Below, one piece after another: positions 167-13,148 of a stretch of 14,046 bases of DNA. The position numbers and the translations under genes were made by a program. The notes beneath the pieces were generated by a model. That model did not search any database. It had not been told where the DNA came from and saw nothing but the letters and a program-made list of their open reading frames with translations. The DNA comes from Thiotrichaceae bacterium. GTDB taxonomy: Bacteria > Pseudomonadota > Gammaproteobacteria > SZUA-229. Every line of letters starts with the position of its first letter. Position 1 is the stretch's first letter. The DNA lies in assembly GCA_002746365.1 (NCBI GenBank), contig NVWZ01000008.1:1-14046 (forward strand), read 5' to 3'.

Positions 167-559
167 TCAACAAGCAGATTTCAGTCTTAAGTTATCTACA
201 AATGGTATAAAGTCTTTATCTGTAAACAGTAAAGGTAATTTGTTTTCTATACAGTAGGTAGCAATTATTACATCCGCTGTTTTTCTAATCGTAATCCCTT
301 TTTTCCTGAGTTTTCTAAAATTATTTGCGCTTTTAATCGCAAGCTCCTTACCTAATAGATCATGCACAGCTAATGACGTTAAAACATTTTTAGCGGCTTT
401 ATAGTCGGTATCACTCCTAAACCCTTGTAATACTTCAGCGAGTATAAGGTCGCCAATTACAACTTCTTCAAGTCCTAGTATCTCATTTAATTTATCCGTT
501 TCAGCATTGTCCACACCATTAAAAAAATTAATCCAAACACTTGAGTCAACCAAAATCAT
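167..559 (-). CDS. vapC: VapC-type PIN-domain toxin
   Basis: This 130-residue protein is a single PIN domain, the RNase fold of type II VapC toxins, which cleave tRNA or other RNA when freed from the antitoxin. The acidic metal-binding residues are visible: Asp5 in ILVDSSVWI, Glu42 in LAEVLQG, Asp96 in KTADVIIA and Asp114 in FTDKDF. The length is typical and the domain looks intact. The ATG start overlaps the upstream antitoxin stop by one base (TAATG), so translation is probably coupled. The gene ends about 10 bases from the end of an IS3-family element. With vapB it forms a cassette lying left of attC1 but reading against the attC direction. Family assignment is secure; RNA target and activity are inferred. 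Confidence 0.9.
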   Translation of the reverse strand: MILVDSSVWINFFNGVDNAETDKLNEILGLEEVVIGDLILAEVLQGFRSDTDYKAAKNVLTSLAVHDLLGKELAIKSANNFRKLRKKGITIRKTADVIIATYCIENKLPLLFTDKDFIPFVDNLRLKSAC

Positions 560-750
560 TATTTAGCTCTCATTTCTTCCAGGTTGCCTTCCCACTTTAA
601 CTTCCCTCTAAGTGCTCTTATAGAAGCTTGTTTATTTAATTTAATCAACGCCTTAAGTCCCAATTCAACGGCTTCTTTTTTAGTGCTTAAACCTGTTGCT
701 TTTAAAGCATCAGCCATTAAACTATCATCAATTTCAATATTTGTACGCAT
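559..750 (-). CDS. vapB: VapB-type antitoxin
   Basis: This 63-residue protein begins MRTNIEIDD, a beta-strand/helix start typical of VapB antitoxins with a ribbon-helix-helix-like DNA-binding N-terminus. The helical KKEAVELGLKALIKL segment follows. The basic C-terminal part (LRGKLKWEGN) is expected to wrap around VapC. I choose ATG at 748-750 rather than the in-frame TTG at 760-762 because GGAGAG lies at a normal ribosome-binding distance just upstream. The stop overlaps the vapC start. As antitoxin and likely autorepressor with VapC, it should bind the repeat-rich region directly upstream. Confidence 0.88.
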   Translation of the reverse strand: MRTNIEIDDSLMADALKATGLSTKKEAVELGLKALIKLNKQASIRALRGKLKWEGNLEEMRAK

Positions 751-762
751 CACGCTCTCCAA

Positions 763-805: not shown

Positions 806-866
806 ACATAACAAGTCAATTAACGGCGACCGCGAAAAGCGCGTCGCGTTATTTCAAACGTTAGAG
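806..866 (+). repeat. Integron attC site 1 (59-base element)
   Basis: The 61 bases have the layout of an integron cassette recombination site. R'' is ACATAAC (806-812), then comes an AAGTCAATT L'' box, an imperfect hairpin, a TTATTTCAAA L' box and R' GTTAGAG (860-866). The central hairpin pairs AACG/CGTT, CGAC/GTCG and GCG/CGC, with two bulged bases on the left arm only, around an AAAAG loop. The outer boxes closely resemble those I recall for the aadA-type attC sites, which sets the orientation as plus. A nearly identical copy lies at 2628-2682. Cleavage would occur between G860 and T861. Confidence 0.8.
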
Positions 867-891
867 CTACTTAAAAACAAAAAAGGAAGTT

Positions 892-1011
892 ATGTTTTTA
901 TCTCCAACTCAAAACAGCGATTCAAGTAAAAACTTGTCATCAGGAATCAACCAGGGTCAATCATTGGTGGTACATACAAAGCATTGCGTACAAAACACAT
1001 ATGAGCCATAA
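892..1011 (+). pseudogene. Tiny cassette ORF (about 36 residues) interrupted by an IS
   Basis: A strong ribosome-binding sequence AAGGAAG (883-889) precedes ATG at 892, only about 30 bases after the attC1 R' box, which is the usual spacing of a cassette gene. The frame runs MFLSPTQNSDSSKNLS to CVQNT at codon 36 (997-999), then enters the IS1111-type element, adding Tyr-Glu-Pro before a TAA at 1009-1011. If the element is removed and the attC restored on the attC1 model, codon 37 becomes the TAA inside R''. The native product would then be 36 hydrophilic residues ending exactly in attC, as many cassette ORFs do. No known family is recognised and there is no signal peptide. The DNA structure is well supported; expression of the peptide is inferred. 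Confidence 0.5.
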
Positions 1012-1507
1012 CCCTGTCAACATGCACTAGTGTTTTTTTTCGGTTAATTGAATAACCAAAAAATAACCAATGAGCAAAGTCGACTACTTCATCTGTCATG
1101 GGTGCTGTTAAGTCAGTCGCTTACAGCAAACACATATAGAGAGTCTCTTACTGCGGTCTCACCGCTGCCTGTTTTTTTGCTTATCCATAAACAGCAACAG
1201 GGCTACTAGACATTCATCGGTTAACCTGGTGCTGGCACTATTCAAATAGGCGGGTTTAGGCAAGCACTGCCTACCCAGTTAGTTTCAGGCTCAGCTCAGG
1301 TGCCGCAGTTATGTACATGGGACTTTGTTCATTGTTTTTATGCACGCCAATGGGGCGTCTAATCAAATCGTCAGGCTCAAGGCTTGATGTAAAAACGGAT
1401 GGTTATCATGGCTAATAGCCAAGCGGTAGCATCGAGTTTTAAACACATTCAACCTGCTTTATTAAAAGCACTGTCCAGTTAGACGTCCAGCTCACCCCCT
1501 TGCGTGA
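1010..1507 (-). ncRNA. Non-coding end of the IS1111-type element, candidate bridge RNA
   Basis: About 500 bases between the transposase stop and the element end contain no supportable gene. IS110-family elements encode a structured bridge RNA in their long non-coding end, and in the IS1111 group this end lies downstream of the transposase, as here. Visible structure includes a strong hairpin at 1252-1276 (TAGGCA / TGCCTA, loop AGCAC, extended by GGG/CCC with a bulge) and several shorter GC-rich inverted repeats at about 1160-1450. AAACACATAT at 1128-1137 repeats the left insertion junction, and AAGTCA at 1110-1115 repeats part of the right flank. Start, end and strand of any RNA are not determined; the assignment rests on the family. 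Confidence 0.4.
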
Positions 1508-2551
1508 CTAACCTTTTAAAAATCGTTTTTCATCGAATACACTCTCGTTTTTTAACATGAAGTAGACACAGCGACCTAGTTTGTGCGCCAGCGCTGAAAG
1601 CGCTTTCGCTTTGCTCATGCGTTTTTGCAGTTTCAATAAATACTTTTGTGCTTTTTCATTGCCTCGCAAATAGAGAACGGCCGCTTCTGAGAATGCCCAC
1701 TTCAAATGCGCATTACCAATTTTATTACCTTGGGTACCGTAGGTTTTCCCTGCAGACTCGGCTTTGCATTTAACTAACCTGGCGTAGGAGGCAAACTTTT
1801 GCACCGACTCGAAACGATCGATGTCGCCGATTTCATAGATGATAGTGAGTGCCAGAATAGGTCCGATACCCCAGACACTTTTTAACAGATGAAAGTGGTT
1901 GGGTTTATGTTGTTTGGCTTGTTGCTGGATATACCATTCCACTTTACTTAACTGTTCAGCGTAGCAGTCTAGGATAACCATATCCAAATCAATATTTTTT
2001 TGTACGGACTGTTCTGAAAAGGTATTTCTCAGTTGCTGGCGTGCATCCTTGTTTTTCAGGTTCACTTTATTGGCTGGCAGATTGTATTGACTGGTGGTGT
2101 TAACAACGTGGGCTTTTAGGTCTGCGCCGTGTCGTACAATCTTCATACGGCGGCGCAGCAAATCACGGGTTGCCCGCATTTTCTTCGGGTAGACATACGC
2201 CAGCGGGAAATTACCACCTCGTATCAGGTTGGCAATTTTAAACGAATCAATCCGGTCATTTTTTGCTTTTCCGCCATGGATGGCTTTCATGTACAGGGCA
2301 TGGCCGAGGATGAAATCAACACCGATGTCTTCACAAAAGTCAGCAACCCAGTACCAGCAGTGCATGCATTCAACCCCAACGACGACATTGCCGATATAAG
2401 GTTCTAGCAGTTGCTGAAGTTTATCGGGTGAAGCGGATATCTCTTTATGCAGACAAGTCTTGCCTGCCTGGTCGATGATGCATACATAAAGTGATCGGGC
2501 GTGTAAATCGATTCCACAGTAGTATGGGTGTATGTTATTGTAGAAATTCAT
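1508..2551 (-). CDS. IS110/IS1111-family transposase (DEDD recombinase)
   Basis: This intact 347-residue transposase has the two-part layout of the family. The N-terminal RuvC-like DEDD domain shows Asp15 in CGIDLHA, Glu61 in GVECM, and Asp99 and Asp102 in KNDRIDS. The C-terminal Tnp_20 domain contains the helix-hairpin-like GIGPILALTIIYEIG (228-242) and then SYARLVKCKAESAGK, where Ser266 is the probable catalytic serine, followed by GNKIGNAHLKWAF. Length is normal and there are no frameshifts, so the element may still be active. GGAG lies 8 bases before the ATG. Only about 75 bases separate the start from the element end, while about 500 non-coding bases follow the stop, which favours the IS1111 group over the IS110 group proper. 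Confidence 0.9.
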   Translation of the reverse strand: MNFYNNIHPYYCGIDLHARSLYVCIIDQAGKTCLHKEISASPDKLQQLLEPYIGNVVVGVECMHCWYWVADFCEDIGVDFILGHALYMKAIHGGKAKNDRIDSFKIANLIRGGNFPLAYVYPKKMRATRDLLRRRMKIVRHGADLKAHVVNTTSQYNLPANKVNLKNKDARQQLRNTFSEQSVQKNIDLDMVILDCYAEQLSKVEWYIQQQAKQHKPNHFHLLKSVWGIGPILALTIIYEIGDIDRFESVQKFASYARLVKCKAESAGKTYGTQGNKIGNAHLKWAFSEAAVLYLRGNEKAQKYLLKLQKRMSKAKALSALAHKLGRCVYFMLKNESVFDEKRFLKG

Positions 2552-2627
2552 TGGGCTTTCTCCGTTTGGTTTGGTCGCCTTTCAGTTTAGCTCAGCGCTA
2601 ATCTGAAGGGGATGGCTCAATGAGTAT

Positions 2628-2682
2628 CAAGTCAATTAACGGCGACCGCAAAAAGCGCGTCGCGTTATTTCAAGCGTTGAAG
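2628..2682 (+). repeat. Integron attC site 2, right-hand part, split by an IS
   Basis: From CAAGTCAATT to R' GTTGAAG (2676-2682) this is a near copy of attC1, with four substitutions over the shared 55 or so bases. One of them weakens the top pair of the hairpin and two fall in the R' box. Its R'' half is missing here and is found instead at about 996-1001 (CACATA), on the far side of the IS1111-type element. Immediately to the right, the IS1182-family terminal repeat begins, so both sides of this site have been hit. Recombination at this site should be blocked or much reduced by the split of R'' from L''. Confidence 0.75.
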
Positions 2683-4110
2683 CTGTAGAAAAACCCTAAA
2701 AACGCAGTGATTTTGCTAAAATGGCTTATTCTAAAAAGGAGTCATGCCTATGCCAAACTTCATTCCTTACGACTATAACCAAAGCACTATGGTCGTCATT
2801 AATTTTGAAGATCAACTGCAACCAGGCACCTTTGAACATGCCATTAATTATCTTGTTGAGAATAAACTCGACCTGTCAGTTTGTTTTTCTGCCTACAATA
2901 ATGAAGACAATGGCCGCCCTGCATATAACCCAGCTATCTTATTAAAAATCATTTTATTTTCTTACTCAAAAGGCATTACCTCAAGTCGGGAAATTGAATA
3001 GTGCTGTATCAATAATATTATTTTTAAATCACTTTCTTGCGACACCGTTCCTCACTTCACCACTATTGCGGGTTTTGTTAGTAGTCGTACTGATGCCATT
3101 GAATCTATCTTTGAACAAATTCTTTTGACCTGCGATGATCAAGGGTTATTAGGACATGAACTCTTTGCCATCGATGGTTGCAAGATGCCTTCGAATGCCA
3201 GTAAAGAATACTCTGGTACCCTAAAAGAACTCGAACAAAAACGTGACAAGATGAAGAAGGCATCGTCGTGACGGCTGATACCGGTTTTGCAAATGAATCT
3301 AACATGGAATATTTATATAACAGTTATATTAATGCCATCATTCCAGACAACGCCTTTAGAAGTCGAGATAAGCGATTTAACGAACAAAAGAAAAGGTATG
3401 GCAAACGCTATCAAGATAAAGCAACAACGAATGCATCAAAATTATTCAGGGCAGAAGAGTTTAACTACCAGCCAATCAAGCAAACGTGCGTTTGCCCCAT
3501 GGGCAAAGAGATGTGGTTAAAAGTTAAAAGTAAAGACGGGCAAGGGAATGACAAAATATTTTTTGAAGGCAATATCACTGACTGTCGTGCTTGTACACAA
3601 CGCTATCGTTGTATGCGCAATCCGGCTTCTGCAGACAGTGCGAGTGGACACGGCAGGCAGGTCTCTTTTATTATCAACAAGAACAAGAAAAAGCGGACTT
3701 TTACCGACTGGATGAAAGAAAGAATAGACAGCAGTGAAGGTCGACAAATATATAGTCACCGCATGAGTGTCGTTGAGCCAGTGCTTGGTCATATCGGCAC
3801 GAACAAGACTTAACCGATTTAGTTTAAGGGGCAAAAAGAAGGTACAAGGGCAGTGGCAGCTGTTTTGTTTAGTTCATAATATTGAAAAGCTGGCTAATTA
3901 TGGACGGTTAATGCAGTAACTTTTTTGCAAAAAAACATACTGTGACGAGACTTGTGCCGTTGTACACAGCGTTCAAGATCAACAAGTGCACATGTTCTGC
4001 AGATGAGTGATAAAAACCACGCAAAAAATAAAAAGTATGGTAACTTATTATTGAGATAATAATTATGACCGGCTGGTGATTCAAGTGGTTTTCTTGGGTT
4101 TTTCTACAGC
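2682..4110 (+). mobile_element. Decayed IS1182-family element
   Basis: Perfect 15-base terminal inverted repeats, GCTGTAGAAAAACCC at 2682-2696 and its complement at 4096-4110, bound a broken transposase gene of the IS1182 family. The repeats continue imperfectly inward (TAAAAAC against GTTTTCTT). The span is about 1429 bp, shorter than intact members because of an internal deletion in the transposase gene. About 175 non-coding bases (3920-4095) lie between the gene and the right repeat, with no ORF of note. No target duplication is apparent in the flanks. The outermost G and C could belong to the target rather than the element. Confidence 0.8.
2744..3919 (+). pseudogene. IS1182-family transposase, broken by stop, deletion and frameshift
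   Basis: The protein starts MPNFIPYDYNQSTM, with the family's N-terminal domain (about 80 residues). There are three lesions. An in-frame TAG at 2999-3001 follows SREIE, where relatives have an aromatic residue before CC..N. A deletion near 3256-3262 joins KRDKMKK to IVVTADTGF out of frame and removes the segment normally found between the first two catalytic Asp residues. A 2-base loss near 3810 follows GTNK, after which the family C-terminus (LNRFSLRGKKK to NYGRLMQ) continues in another frame to TAA at 3917-3919. The likely DDE residues remain visible in LFAIDG, TADTG and VVEPVLG, but no functional transposase can be made. AAAAAGGAG lies upstream of the ATG. Confidence 0.88.
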
Positions 4111-4120
4111 CTCGTTATGT

Positions 4121-4390
4121 TTAAAATTGATCATAATGTCCGCCAATTGCGTAGATATAAATGTAATCTTTATCATACTTATATATAACACGATCTTTTT
4201 GGCTTATGCGACGAGACCACAAACCAGAGAGGTTGTGTTTTAATGGTTCAGGTTTTCCGGTTCCAGCTCGTGGGTCATCACGGAGCATTTCTTTTAATAA
4301 ACGGCAAAGCACTTTGTGTAGCTTTTTGTCTTTTAGCCTAAGTCCTTCATATGTAGTCCAGGTATTACCCTCAAATACCAGTGATCTCAT
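4121..4390 (-). CDS. yoeB: YoeB-family mRNA interferase toxin
   Basis: This 89-residue protein belongs to the Txe/YoeB branch of the RelE superfamily, ribosome-dependent RNases that cut mRNA in the A site. The signature KPEPLKHNLSGLWSRRI is present. The residues equivalent to E. coli YoeB Glu46, Arg65, His83 and Tyr84 appear as Glu48, Arg67, His85 and Tyr86. Length and C-terminus (HYDQF) are normal, so the toxin looks intact. It overlaps the antitoxin gene by 20 bases, with the antitoxin upstream, which implies coupled expression. The pair sits left of attC3 and reads against it, and the IS1182-family remnant ends about 10 bases beyond the stop codon. Activity is inferred from intact residues. 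Confidence 0.93.
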   Translation of the reverse strand: MRSLVFEGNTWTTYEGLRLKDKKLHKVLCRLLKEMLRDDPRAGTGKPEPLKHNLSGLWSRRISQKDRVIYKYDKDYIYIYAIGGHYDQF

Positions 4391-4643
4391 CTAGCTCTCC
4401 AGCAGTAGGCTTATATCCCTTATTTTTTGCATTTGTAGTAACTGAGGCTGCAATCTGCTTCATTAAGTCATTGTTTTGTAAAATATATAAGGTTTCTTGC
4501 TCACGCTCCCAGTCATCCGCACTTAAAATAACAAAATCATCACCACACCTGCGTGTAACCTTAAGAGGCAAGTGCTCTGTAACCACCTGTTCCACAAAGC
4601 TTTTTAAGTTTTCTCTAAATTTATTTACACTAATAGTATCCAT
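4371..4643 (-). CDS. yefM: YefM/Phd-family antitoxin
   Basis: This 90-residue antitoxin starts MDTISVNKFRENLKSF, the typical Phd/YefM N-terminal DNA-binding fold. The LPLKVTRRCGDDFVILSADDW segment ends the folded domain. A more polar C-terminus (residues about 60-90) is expected to bind and neutralise YoeB. I take ATG at 4641-4643 rather than the upstream GTG at 4650-4652, because GGTGAG lies 4 bases before the ATG and the protein then begins as its relatives do. The next gene, yoeB, overlaps its end. With YoeB it should repress its own promoter directly upstream. Confidence 0.9.
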   Translation of the reverse strand: MDTISVNKFRENLKSFVEQVVTEHLPLKVTRRCGDDFVILSADDWEREQETLYILQNNDLMKQIAASVTTNAKNKGYKPTAGELDEITGI

Positions 4644-4651
4644 TTCTCTCA

Positions 4652-4680
4652 CCTATATAACGTACCGTAATGCCGTACAT
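4652..4680 (-). promoter_or_regulatory. Probable yefM-yoeB promoter/operator
   Basis: Two GTAC cores (4662-4665 and 4675-4678) lie 13 bases apart within CGTACCGTAATGCCGTACAT just upstream of yefM. E. coli YefM-YoeB recognises TGTACA-type cores at about this spacing, so these are good operator candidates. On the minus strand, GTTATATAGG between the second core and the ribosome-binding site could supply a -10 element. No wet evidence is implied; the assignment is by analogy and position. Confidence 0.45.
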
Positions 4681-4693
4681 GGTAATGGCAAAG

Positions 4694-4780
4694 CCCTAAC
4701 AAGTCAATTAACGTGGACTCTCAGAATGCGTCTTTCGTTCTTCTAGCCCGCTGTGCAGCCAGTTATTTCAAACGTAATGT
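4694..4780 (+). repeat. Integron attC site 3, divergent
   Basis: R''-like CCCTAAC (4694-4700) is followed by AAGTCAATTAACG, identical to the left arm of attC1. The right arm GTTATTTCAAACGT (4762-4775) also matches attC1, ending in an R' box GTAATGT (4774-4780) that departs from the GTTRRRY consensus at its third base. The central part differs completely and is longer (about 50 bases). Only a short stem (AAC-TGG with CCA-GTT, one bulged G) is easy to see. The site separates the yefM-yoeB cassette from a lipoprotein cassette. The R' change suggests it may recombine poorly. Confidence 0.65.
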
Positions 4781-4817
4781 TTGTAAAATAAAATTCACGC
4801 TATCAACGAGGAGAGTT

Positions 4818-5059
4818 TTGCGTATAAAAAAGTAGCACTTTTAATATCTGCATCATTAGTTGGGTGCTCGGTAAATGAAGTTAGACCTAAAGCAGCACAT
4901 GTTGATATTGTGTATGAAAAACCCAACAAAACTAAATGTAAATTTGTCTGTGAAGTTGTTGGTTCGCAAGGTAATTGGTTTACTGGCGATTTCACGTCAA
5001 ACGAGGTGGCAATTACGTCGGTGACGTCCATTTCGAGTCCGCTGATTGCTGTGATGTAG
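4818..5059 (+). pseudogene. Truncated DUF4156-like lipoprotein cassette gene
   Basis: GAGGAG (4808-4813) precedes a TTG at 4818. The reading MRIKKVALLISASLVGC with a lipobox LVGC is obtained only if one A is added to the run of six at 4826-4831, so the gene carries a frameshift at its start. The mature part (KPNKTKCKFVCEVVGSQGNW, then FTGDFTSNE) resembles DUF4156 outer-membrane lipoproteins, common as cassettes in chromosomal integrons. Similarity ends near 5005. The remaining 18 or so codons to TAG at 5057-5059 are unrelated, and the family's ARN-LK--A--LGAN-type C-terminal half is missing. No attC follows, so the right end of this cassette was lost in a rearrangement. Family assignment is from memory of the pattern and moderately sure. 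Confidence 0.65.
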
Positions 5060-13026: not shown

Positions 13027-13040
13027 TTGGGAAAACGTAA

Positions 13041-13133
13041 TGAAAAGTGAAAAGTGAAAAATTAGAAACAAAAACAAGAAATGCAGTCATTGTGAACGTA
13101 GTAATGGCAAAATTTTTCATTTTTCATTTTTCA
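13041..13133. terminator. Long inverted repeat between purK and rhlB, probable bidirectional terminator
   Basis: A 23-base arm (13041-13063, built from two GAAAAGT units and ending GAAAAATT) pairs with 13111-13133 (AATTTTTCAT and further TTTTTCA units) with only two mismatches, both able to form G-U pairs in one orientation. The loop is 47 bases. The right arm continues one more TTTTTCA unit. The position, between convergent genes, fits a shared transcription terminator. The AT-rich tandem units are unlike a classical GC-rich stem, so a small repeat element or MITE remnant is an alternative. Confidence 0.5.
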
Positions 13134-13148
13134 TTTTTCATTGCCGAC

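Follow-up and report, generated by a model that had tools for sequence, protein, structure and literature searches.

What does an integron recombination site offer to a transposon? Integron arrays are a main stockpile of mobile gene cassettes, and the question is raised by the 14,046 nucleotides at the start of a contig from a Thiotrichaceae bacterium (NVWZ01000008.1), the whole of which we call the window. The initial annotation had described there three sites resembling attC, the cassette recombination site, within a remnant cassette array; two insertion sequences that it had overlooked abut the second of these sites. We are confident that the repeats are attC sites, that site 2 has been entered from both sides, and that a clade of IS1182-type elements likely recognises attC and inserts at the GTT of its R' box. 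What is directly seen is the position of the element, GTT on both of its sides, recurrence at attC in other genomes, and one transposase clade. Contig C23 is 160.7 kb long and opens with the 14,046 bases of the window; the draft genome to which it belongs comprises 3.41 Mb in 56 contigs. Below, C numbers denote contigs of this genome, L numbers the loci analysed and G numbers genomes. Coordinates of the features are collected in Table 1.

The arm sequences that had been reported as common to the three sites are direct repeats, recovered in a repeat search of the window at 809-878, 2625-2694 and 4697-4718 and again at 848-861, 2664-2677 and 4762-4775. We searched for attC with a covariance model (R1) in place of that of IntegronFinder. 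R1 was built from 22 aligned attC-like sites, all from other genomes, of which 20 came from ends of the IS1182-type element described below and two from an integrase-bearing genome (L037). The box pairs of this alignment covary, with 98.1% of cells paired, a value that none of 500 shuffles reached (80.4% being paired there), and paired cells fall to 22-52% when the partner is shifted by 1-3 columns. With its filters switched off, R1 gave these three sites its highest scores in the window, the next match reaching 9.8 bits, although E-values of models of this kind are rough. All three lie on the plus strand, in the single orientation first described, within 3971 bases. The R' core reads GTT in sites 1 and 2 and GTA in site 3. 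When the minus strand was folded as single-stranded DNA, 6 of 200 shuffles folded as well as site 1, none of 200 as well as site 2 and 159 of 200 as well as site 3, so that single-strand folding supports the first two sites and not the third. Across the genome R1 also picks up all three sites beside the integron integrase on C50, one of them being its best match, and for this reason we regard it as a working attC model. At E up to 1 its matches number at least 13 and are spread over nine contigs, 150 of 363 first-look candidates having been scored. Single matches occur on C3, C25, C43, C12, C5, C20 and C26 (L221, L222, L223, L224, L225, L017 and L220, respectively); these adjoin small genes, several of which resemble toxin-antitoxin genes by eye, and no integrase match on these contigs exceeds the cut-off. 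Rfam (E up to 1) returned two weak matches in the window, both under their gathering scores and neither relevant, and no matches on C50, C51 and half of C20.

On one side, the R'' box of site 2 is split by an IS1111/IS110-type insertion sequence, of which the genome holds four copies or part copies. The left junction follows AAC in all four, and the three visible right junctions continue into attC arms; the copies on C50 and C54 match both junctions seen in the window, and that on C51 matches the left one. At the three right junctions R1 scores 23.1 (window), 17.8 and 16.7 bits, the last two being low because R'' has been replaced there by the end of the element. Within the element, the non-coding flanks of the transposase gene measure 511 bases downstream versus 77 upstream. 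By its family, its longer downstream non-coding region and its one fixed attC end, this element fits the IS1111-attC group, whose members, according to the relevant part of PMC11187229 (citing Tetu and Holmes 2008, Post and Hall 2009), insert at one attC end, as this one does. The splitting of R'' would then be known behaviour of the group, presumably RNA-guided.

On the other side, a second element starts directly after the CGTT of site 2, and GTT is found again at its far end. The two elements differ: the IS1111-attC group relies on a DEDD RNA-guided transposase and sits, in this case, at the R'' end, whereas the second element is of a DDE type, ends in terminal inverted repeats, is flanked by GTT on either side and lies at the R' end. 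Its inverted ends are 24 bases long and 88% alike. The open reading frames (ORFs) at 2744-3001 and 3268-3813 align to intact IS1182 transposases with about residues 172-303 missing; these pieces match PF05598 and PF13751, and the second also NF033551 (62.9 bits). With its internal deletion and stops, this copy is dead. We found no intact copy of the attC-type IS1182 element in the genome, in which other IS1182 members are present (C11 and C36). These ends (at most 2 mismatches) recur in the genome at one place only, on C54, where they bound a miniature element of 166 bp whose position is again exactly at the GTT of an attC R' box. That locus (L016:2659-4520) is a second attC with an IS1111-type element in R'' and an IS1182-derived miniature at R'; the double insertion mirrors site 2, but the central stem of the attC differs.

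Two intact relatives of the element carry PF05598 (DUF772) and PF13751 (DDE_Tnp_1_6). They score 264.9 and 248.9 against the NF033551 equivalog cut-off of 270, and other members of the clade exceed it (for instance 301.3, 288.9 and 273.8). The likeness to the IS1182 family thus lies in the transposase family (DUF772 plus DDE) and the general build; the difference is that this clade has GTT on both sides, sits at attC and scores around the NCBIfam cut-off. For comparison, ISPse1, an IS1182-family element, is given in the section of PMC3281130 that treats it as 1653 bp long, with 16/16 repeats and a 4-bp duplication.

How general this position is was asked in two ways. One was a scan for the terminal repeat GARGCTGTAGAAAAACC across 84,980 species, each represented by a single genome, the window's own records left out, which yielded at least 124 matches in at least 115 loci. 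Among the 124 matches listed, the triplet before the repeat is GTT in 66 and AAC, that is, the other end read outward, in 35, making 101 GTT-flanked; it is another triplet in the remaining 23, many of which lie inside coding sequence by eye. GTT accounts for 1.6% of triplets and CGTT for 0.37% of positions in the scanned loci, and the probability of such flanking by chance is about 3e-127 if the matches are independent. The base preceding GTT is C in 65 of the 66 listed matches. According to R1, an attC ends at the element in 41 of the 66 listed GTT ends (20/20 training loci and 21/46 held-out ones) and in 2 of the 23 listed non-GTT matches, where the triplet is CTT or GTC; 154 of 168 model matches entered these end counts, the 14 left out scoring 17.9 bits or less and none lying at an element end. 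A score of the arms gave a concordant separation: 24 of 45 held-out ends pass at a threshold met by 1% of 2578 control CGTT (Fisher 2e-32), and 16 of 45 at a stricter one met by 0.2%. Here one of the 46 held-out ends, with fewer than 60 upstream bases, was left out, controls near model matches were excluded, and held-out L124 shares its last 60 bases (its attC) with training locus L053. A strict hairpin detector (32/66 ends versus 305/9005 control GTT) proved too strict, and R1 was used instead. Thirty-seven two-ended elements were picked for matching triplets on both sides, one of which (L076, 746 bp) contains another (108 bp). Twenty-three of them are miniatures of 88-746 bp without a full transposase, sharing the GTT site, and the other 14 measure 1639-1974 bp, 13 having ORFs of 456-539 amino acids. 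Many of the listed GTT-flanked ends are in proteobacterial records, and a few in records titled Desulfuromonadaceae, Nitrospirae or Spirochaetes.

The other way was a search, not conditioned on the target, in which an intact transposase served as query against 369 genomes of the class. It matched 24 genomes, the window's own included, and 24 of its 28 loci were examined (L196, L200, L201 and L204 were left out; L189 and L206 repeat L153 and L147, and L183 has the same flanks as L106). GTT is present at 22 of 22 recognisable left ends and at 20 of 20 right ends. Nineteen loci have upstream sequence and could be assessed, three of them repeating loci of the terminal-repeat scan; in 14 of these 19 R1 places an attC that ends within a base of the element (E up to 0.062), and it fails in L190, L202, L205, L206 and L207. 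In G277, a genome of two contigs, copies differing by at most one base, and a fourth that is 2 bases longer, occupy two different attC sites among others; there is also a truncated copy, which begins at the GTT just behind a full one. In 10 of 13 long-ORF elements the transposase gene points away from attC, towards the next cassette. Among plasmids, the IS1182-type transposase was matched in 3 of 72,556 records, two of the matches covering at least 80% of it, and all three in large Pseudoalteromonas or Catenovulum replicons; two loci were inspected, of which one shows attC-like sequence next to the element (score 36.7), whereas the left end of the other could not be located.

The transposases of 21 GTT-flanked elements separate from 17 other IS1182 proteins with branch support of 100/100, in a tree of proteins chosen for length in which the program flags some long branches among the 17 others. 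Those 17 have different or unresolved ends, 6 of 11 checked show 4-bp direct repeats, and R1 gives a single weak match in their loci (15.3 bits, outside the element). A single switch from a 4-bp to a 3-bp duplication, together with the attC preference, would fit this tree. By eye, other IS1182 members (L238, L247, L248 and L251) lie in partly palindromic targets, some with 4-bp repeats, and such a habit may perhaps have been the origin of attC targeting.

The array itself can be read in two ways, as the initial annotation had allowed: as a cluster of attC sites without an integrase or as the distal end of a longer array. The window contains no integrase, as had been stated. In the genome, two full integron integrases exceed the TIGR02249 cut-off of 265 (C51:12127-13065, 488 bits; C50:8408-9352, 445 bits), neither of them on the window's contig, with five weaker matches below it; the cut-off was exceeded in none of 14 control genomes. 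Contig C23 begins at window base 1, inside an IS3 copy, and the array probably continues leftward because the window starts at this assembly break. A full copy of the IS3 element lies on C54 (its OrfB is of the IS3 family; NF033516, 323 bits), and 5' parts end contigs C3 and C48. An attC-like sequence stands directly before IS3 in each case, on C3 (L221:4653-4765; arm score 29.5, which passes), C54 (L016:1-98; 3.6, cut by the contig end) and C48 (L257:73-120; 5.4). R1 matches none of these three; on C3 it does match a further attC, 0.7 kb ahead of the attC-like sequence. The left neighbour of C23 is likely C3 or C48. The window could therefore be the distal end of one of the two integrons, parted from its integrase by the assembly alone, as its start inside a repeated IS3 would allow; the integrase contigs, too, stop near repeats: the end of C51 cuts an IS1111-type copy, and that of C50 comes about 220 bases past such a copy. 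This remains a minority view for us, as the joinable ends on C3 and C48 carry an attC-like sequence beside IS3 and no integrase match, which favours a longer integrase-less cluster. Such a cluster is the more likely of the two, without certainty given the contig break inside IS3. CALINs (clusters of attC sites lacking an integrase) are defined in the available part of PMC9024848 as at least two attC sites close together with no integrase nearby. The window resembles them in its three clustered sites and differs in lying at a contig edge and in being interrupted by two insertion sequences; its left side is a contig end, and above-cut-off integrases were matched on C50 and C51 only. Elements of the IS1182-type clade may also be points at which contigs with attC break, and integrase-less clusters would then be overcounted in draft genomes. 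We also attempted to date the cluster by synteny around the gene for a short-chain dehydrogenase/reductase (SDR); 3 of 58 genomes matched, the window's own included, and the cluster was not dated in this way because the sole same-genus match shares only the SDR gene.

As for what the IS1182-type clade recognises, several observations weigh against attC. R1 finds none at the element in 25 of the 46 held-out ends listed; L073, L075, L135, L145, L089 and L095 look like plain CGTT sites; 2 of 5 ends in G277 are at CGTT without attC; among 35 opposite-side ends, only 12 have a cassette-sense attC within 3 kb outside (and one has an attC in the opposite sense); and the transposases of L053, L084 and L166 are oriented opposite to the other ten. 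These last three form a Rhodocyclales subclade. The elements might respond to CGTT itself or to any short hairpin with CGTT at its end, of which attC would merely be a common case. CGTT targets without attC do exist, and other IS1182 members (e.g. L238, L247 and L248) have the partly palindromic targets mentioned above. We nevertheless consider this explanation unlikely. The aligned ends carry R'', L'' and L' boxes with attC covariation, R1 finds an attC at 14 of the 19 ends assessable in the transposase-led search, which was not conditioned on the target, and 24 of 45 held-out ends are attC-like versus 1% of control CGTT, a tetranucleotide found at 0.37% of positions. GTT does appear to be required more strictly than attC, because some members sit at plain CGTT.

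It is improbable to a further degree that the integron integrase, and not their own transposase, placed these elements at G/TT as cassettes. The element boundary coincides with G/TT, which we take to be the crossover point of the integrase, and GTT stands on both sides. The elements, however, have near-perfect terminal inverted repeats and intact DDE transposases, some insertions are at CGTT without attC, a truncated copy begins at the GTT after a full copy, and by eye there is no attC inside the elements. Finally, that the three sites are REP-like (repetitive extragenic palindromic) intergenic repeats with no integron function is hardly credible: similar sequences do occur singly on several contigs, but R1, trained on other genomes, matches all three sites and those at the C50 integrase, the surroundings are cassette-like, the genome has two integrases, and instead of the dispersal without cassette context that the initial annotation had named as telling against attC, the seven other single matches whose surroundings were inspected adjoin small genes.

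Insertion by the IS1182-type clade at attC could proceed as follows. The transposase would recognise attC, in its sequence or in its folded form, rather than CGTT alone, and as a DDE enzyme it would cut the R' core with a 3-base stagger, so that GTT is doubled as a target duplication. The left GTT followed by GAR resembles an R' box (close to GTTRRRY), and the attC core would thereby stay in place. The right GTT copy would open the next cassette, of which the element would become the 5' part, and an integron integrase would be expected to move element and cassette together. On balance, and with modest confidence, we favour a broader statement: that one IS1182 clade, together with its miniatures, inserts into attC at R' with a doubling of GTT, keeps the site usable and travels with the cassette that follows, and that at least four unrelated groups land at attC in this genome, namely IS1111-type elements at R'', IS1182-type elements and miniatures at R', a second IS110-type group at R' and IS3 elements a few bases past GTT. 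Confidence in this broader statement is limited because R1 leaves several IS3 and IS110 sites unconfirmed.

The IS3 and second IS110-type groups are leads, weaker than the IS1182 case. A pattern search for the IS3 group gave 14 ends in 7 of the 369 genomes, seven of which (in five genomes) were taken as left ends by eye. In all seven (L221, L016, L257, L262, L264, L268 and L267) GTT stands exactly 11 bases before CTACCC. Against an arm-score threshold of 22.0, two pass (29.5 and 41.5), one falls just under (20.0), three are low (5.4, -2.7 and -14.1) and one is cut by a contig end; R1 confirms one of the seven, L262, at 31.7 bits. The second IS110-family element (L219:440-2020, on C44; NF033542, 279.5 bits) begins with GATATGACTTTCCGC directly after the GTT of an attC-like sequence to which R1 gives no match. 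On C50 this end is found again, behind the GTT of an attC (L014:13779-13915; R1 16.7 bits).

Clusters of attC sites, attC-targeting IS1111 elements and group IIC introns are already known; new would be an attC-specific insertion sequence from another transposase family. In the literature searched, mostly outside subscription papers and in part as excerpts, IS1111-type elements and group II introns alone are named as attC-specific, and the matches listed include no attC-targeting IS1182 or IS3 group. Group IIC-attC introns insert directly after or into attC, with the bottom-strand target TTGT/T, according to the passages available from PMC7923331; they resemble the present elements as mobile elements at attC and differ in being retroelements (group II introns), not transposons. 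In phyllosphere cassettes, 49% of transposases were of the IS5 family and 23% of IS3 (PMC11089894, consulted as an extract); transposases of these families have thus already been seen in arrays, and their target is not noted in that extract. If our reading is true, a DDE clade that chooses the recombination core would represent integron parasites that need no RNA guide and that may leave the site usable. With this clade one could also examine how a target that is folded, or strongly structured, is read by a DDE transposase.

Table 1. Features at the left end of the window (positions in the window; cut-offs are those of the profile named)
Feature	Position	Strand	Evidence
IS3-family element, 3' end, cut by contig start	1..156	+	99% identity to 1101-1256 of the full copy queried (C54)
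vapC toxin gene	167..559	-	NF047959, 159 bits (cut-off 80); PIN domain
vapB antitoxin gene	559..762	-	PF09957, E 7e-17
attC site 1	806..862	+	R1 35.0 bits, E 9.4e-8
Very short ORF	from 892, runs into IS1111-type element at 997		
IS1111/IS110-type insertion sequence in R'' of site 2	997..2628	-	Junctions AAC|ACATATGAG ... GAGTATC|AAGTC
IS110-family RNA-guided transposase	1508..2551	-	NF033542, 218.9 bits (cut-off 140)
attC site 2 (other R'' half at 990-996)	2622..2678	+	R1 23.1 bits, E 2e-4; junctions
Left GTT, R' core of site 2	2676..2678	+	Sequence
Decayed IS1182-type element, terminal repeats GAAGCTGTAGAAAAACC / GGTTTTTCTACAGCCTC	2679..4113	+	Inverted repeat; ORFs 2744-3001 and 3268-3813
Right GTT, read as 3-bp target duplication	4114..4116	+	Sequence; both-sided in other genomes too
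yoeB toxin gene	4121..4390	-	TIGR02116, 66.5 bits (cut-off 51.8)
yefM antitoxin gene	4371..4652	-	PF02604, E 6e-16
attC site 3, R' core GTA not GTT	4694..4776	+	R1 26.4 bits, E 2e-5
DUF4156 lipoprotein gene remnant, without start codon	4820..5056	+	PF13698, E 1e-8

The observation made in the initial annotation is confirmed and its interpretation partly supported. Profile matches agree with the identities given to the bracketed VapC, VapB, YefM and YoeB (Table 1). The gene called a truncated lipoprotein gene does belong to a lipoprotein family and takes the form of a start-less remnant. Cassettes bracketed by attC are present as described; the account of a cassette array missed the two insertion sequences between site 1 and yoeB, and because these interrupt site 2 the array is no simple run of cassettes. 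To the right of the DUF4156 remnant come thioredoxin-like, SDR, queuosine mannosyltransferase-like and GGDEF-EAL genes, followed by more genes of chromosomal type. Further along, an A/T-rich inverted repeat with 25-base arms (92%) lies at 13039-13135, between purK and an RNA helicase gene.

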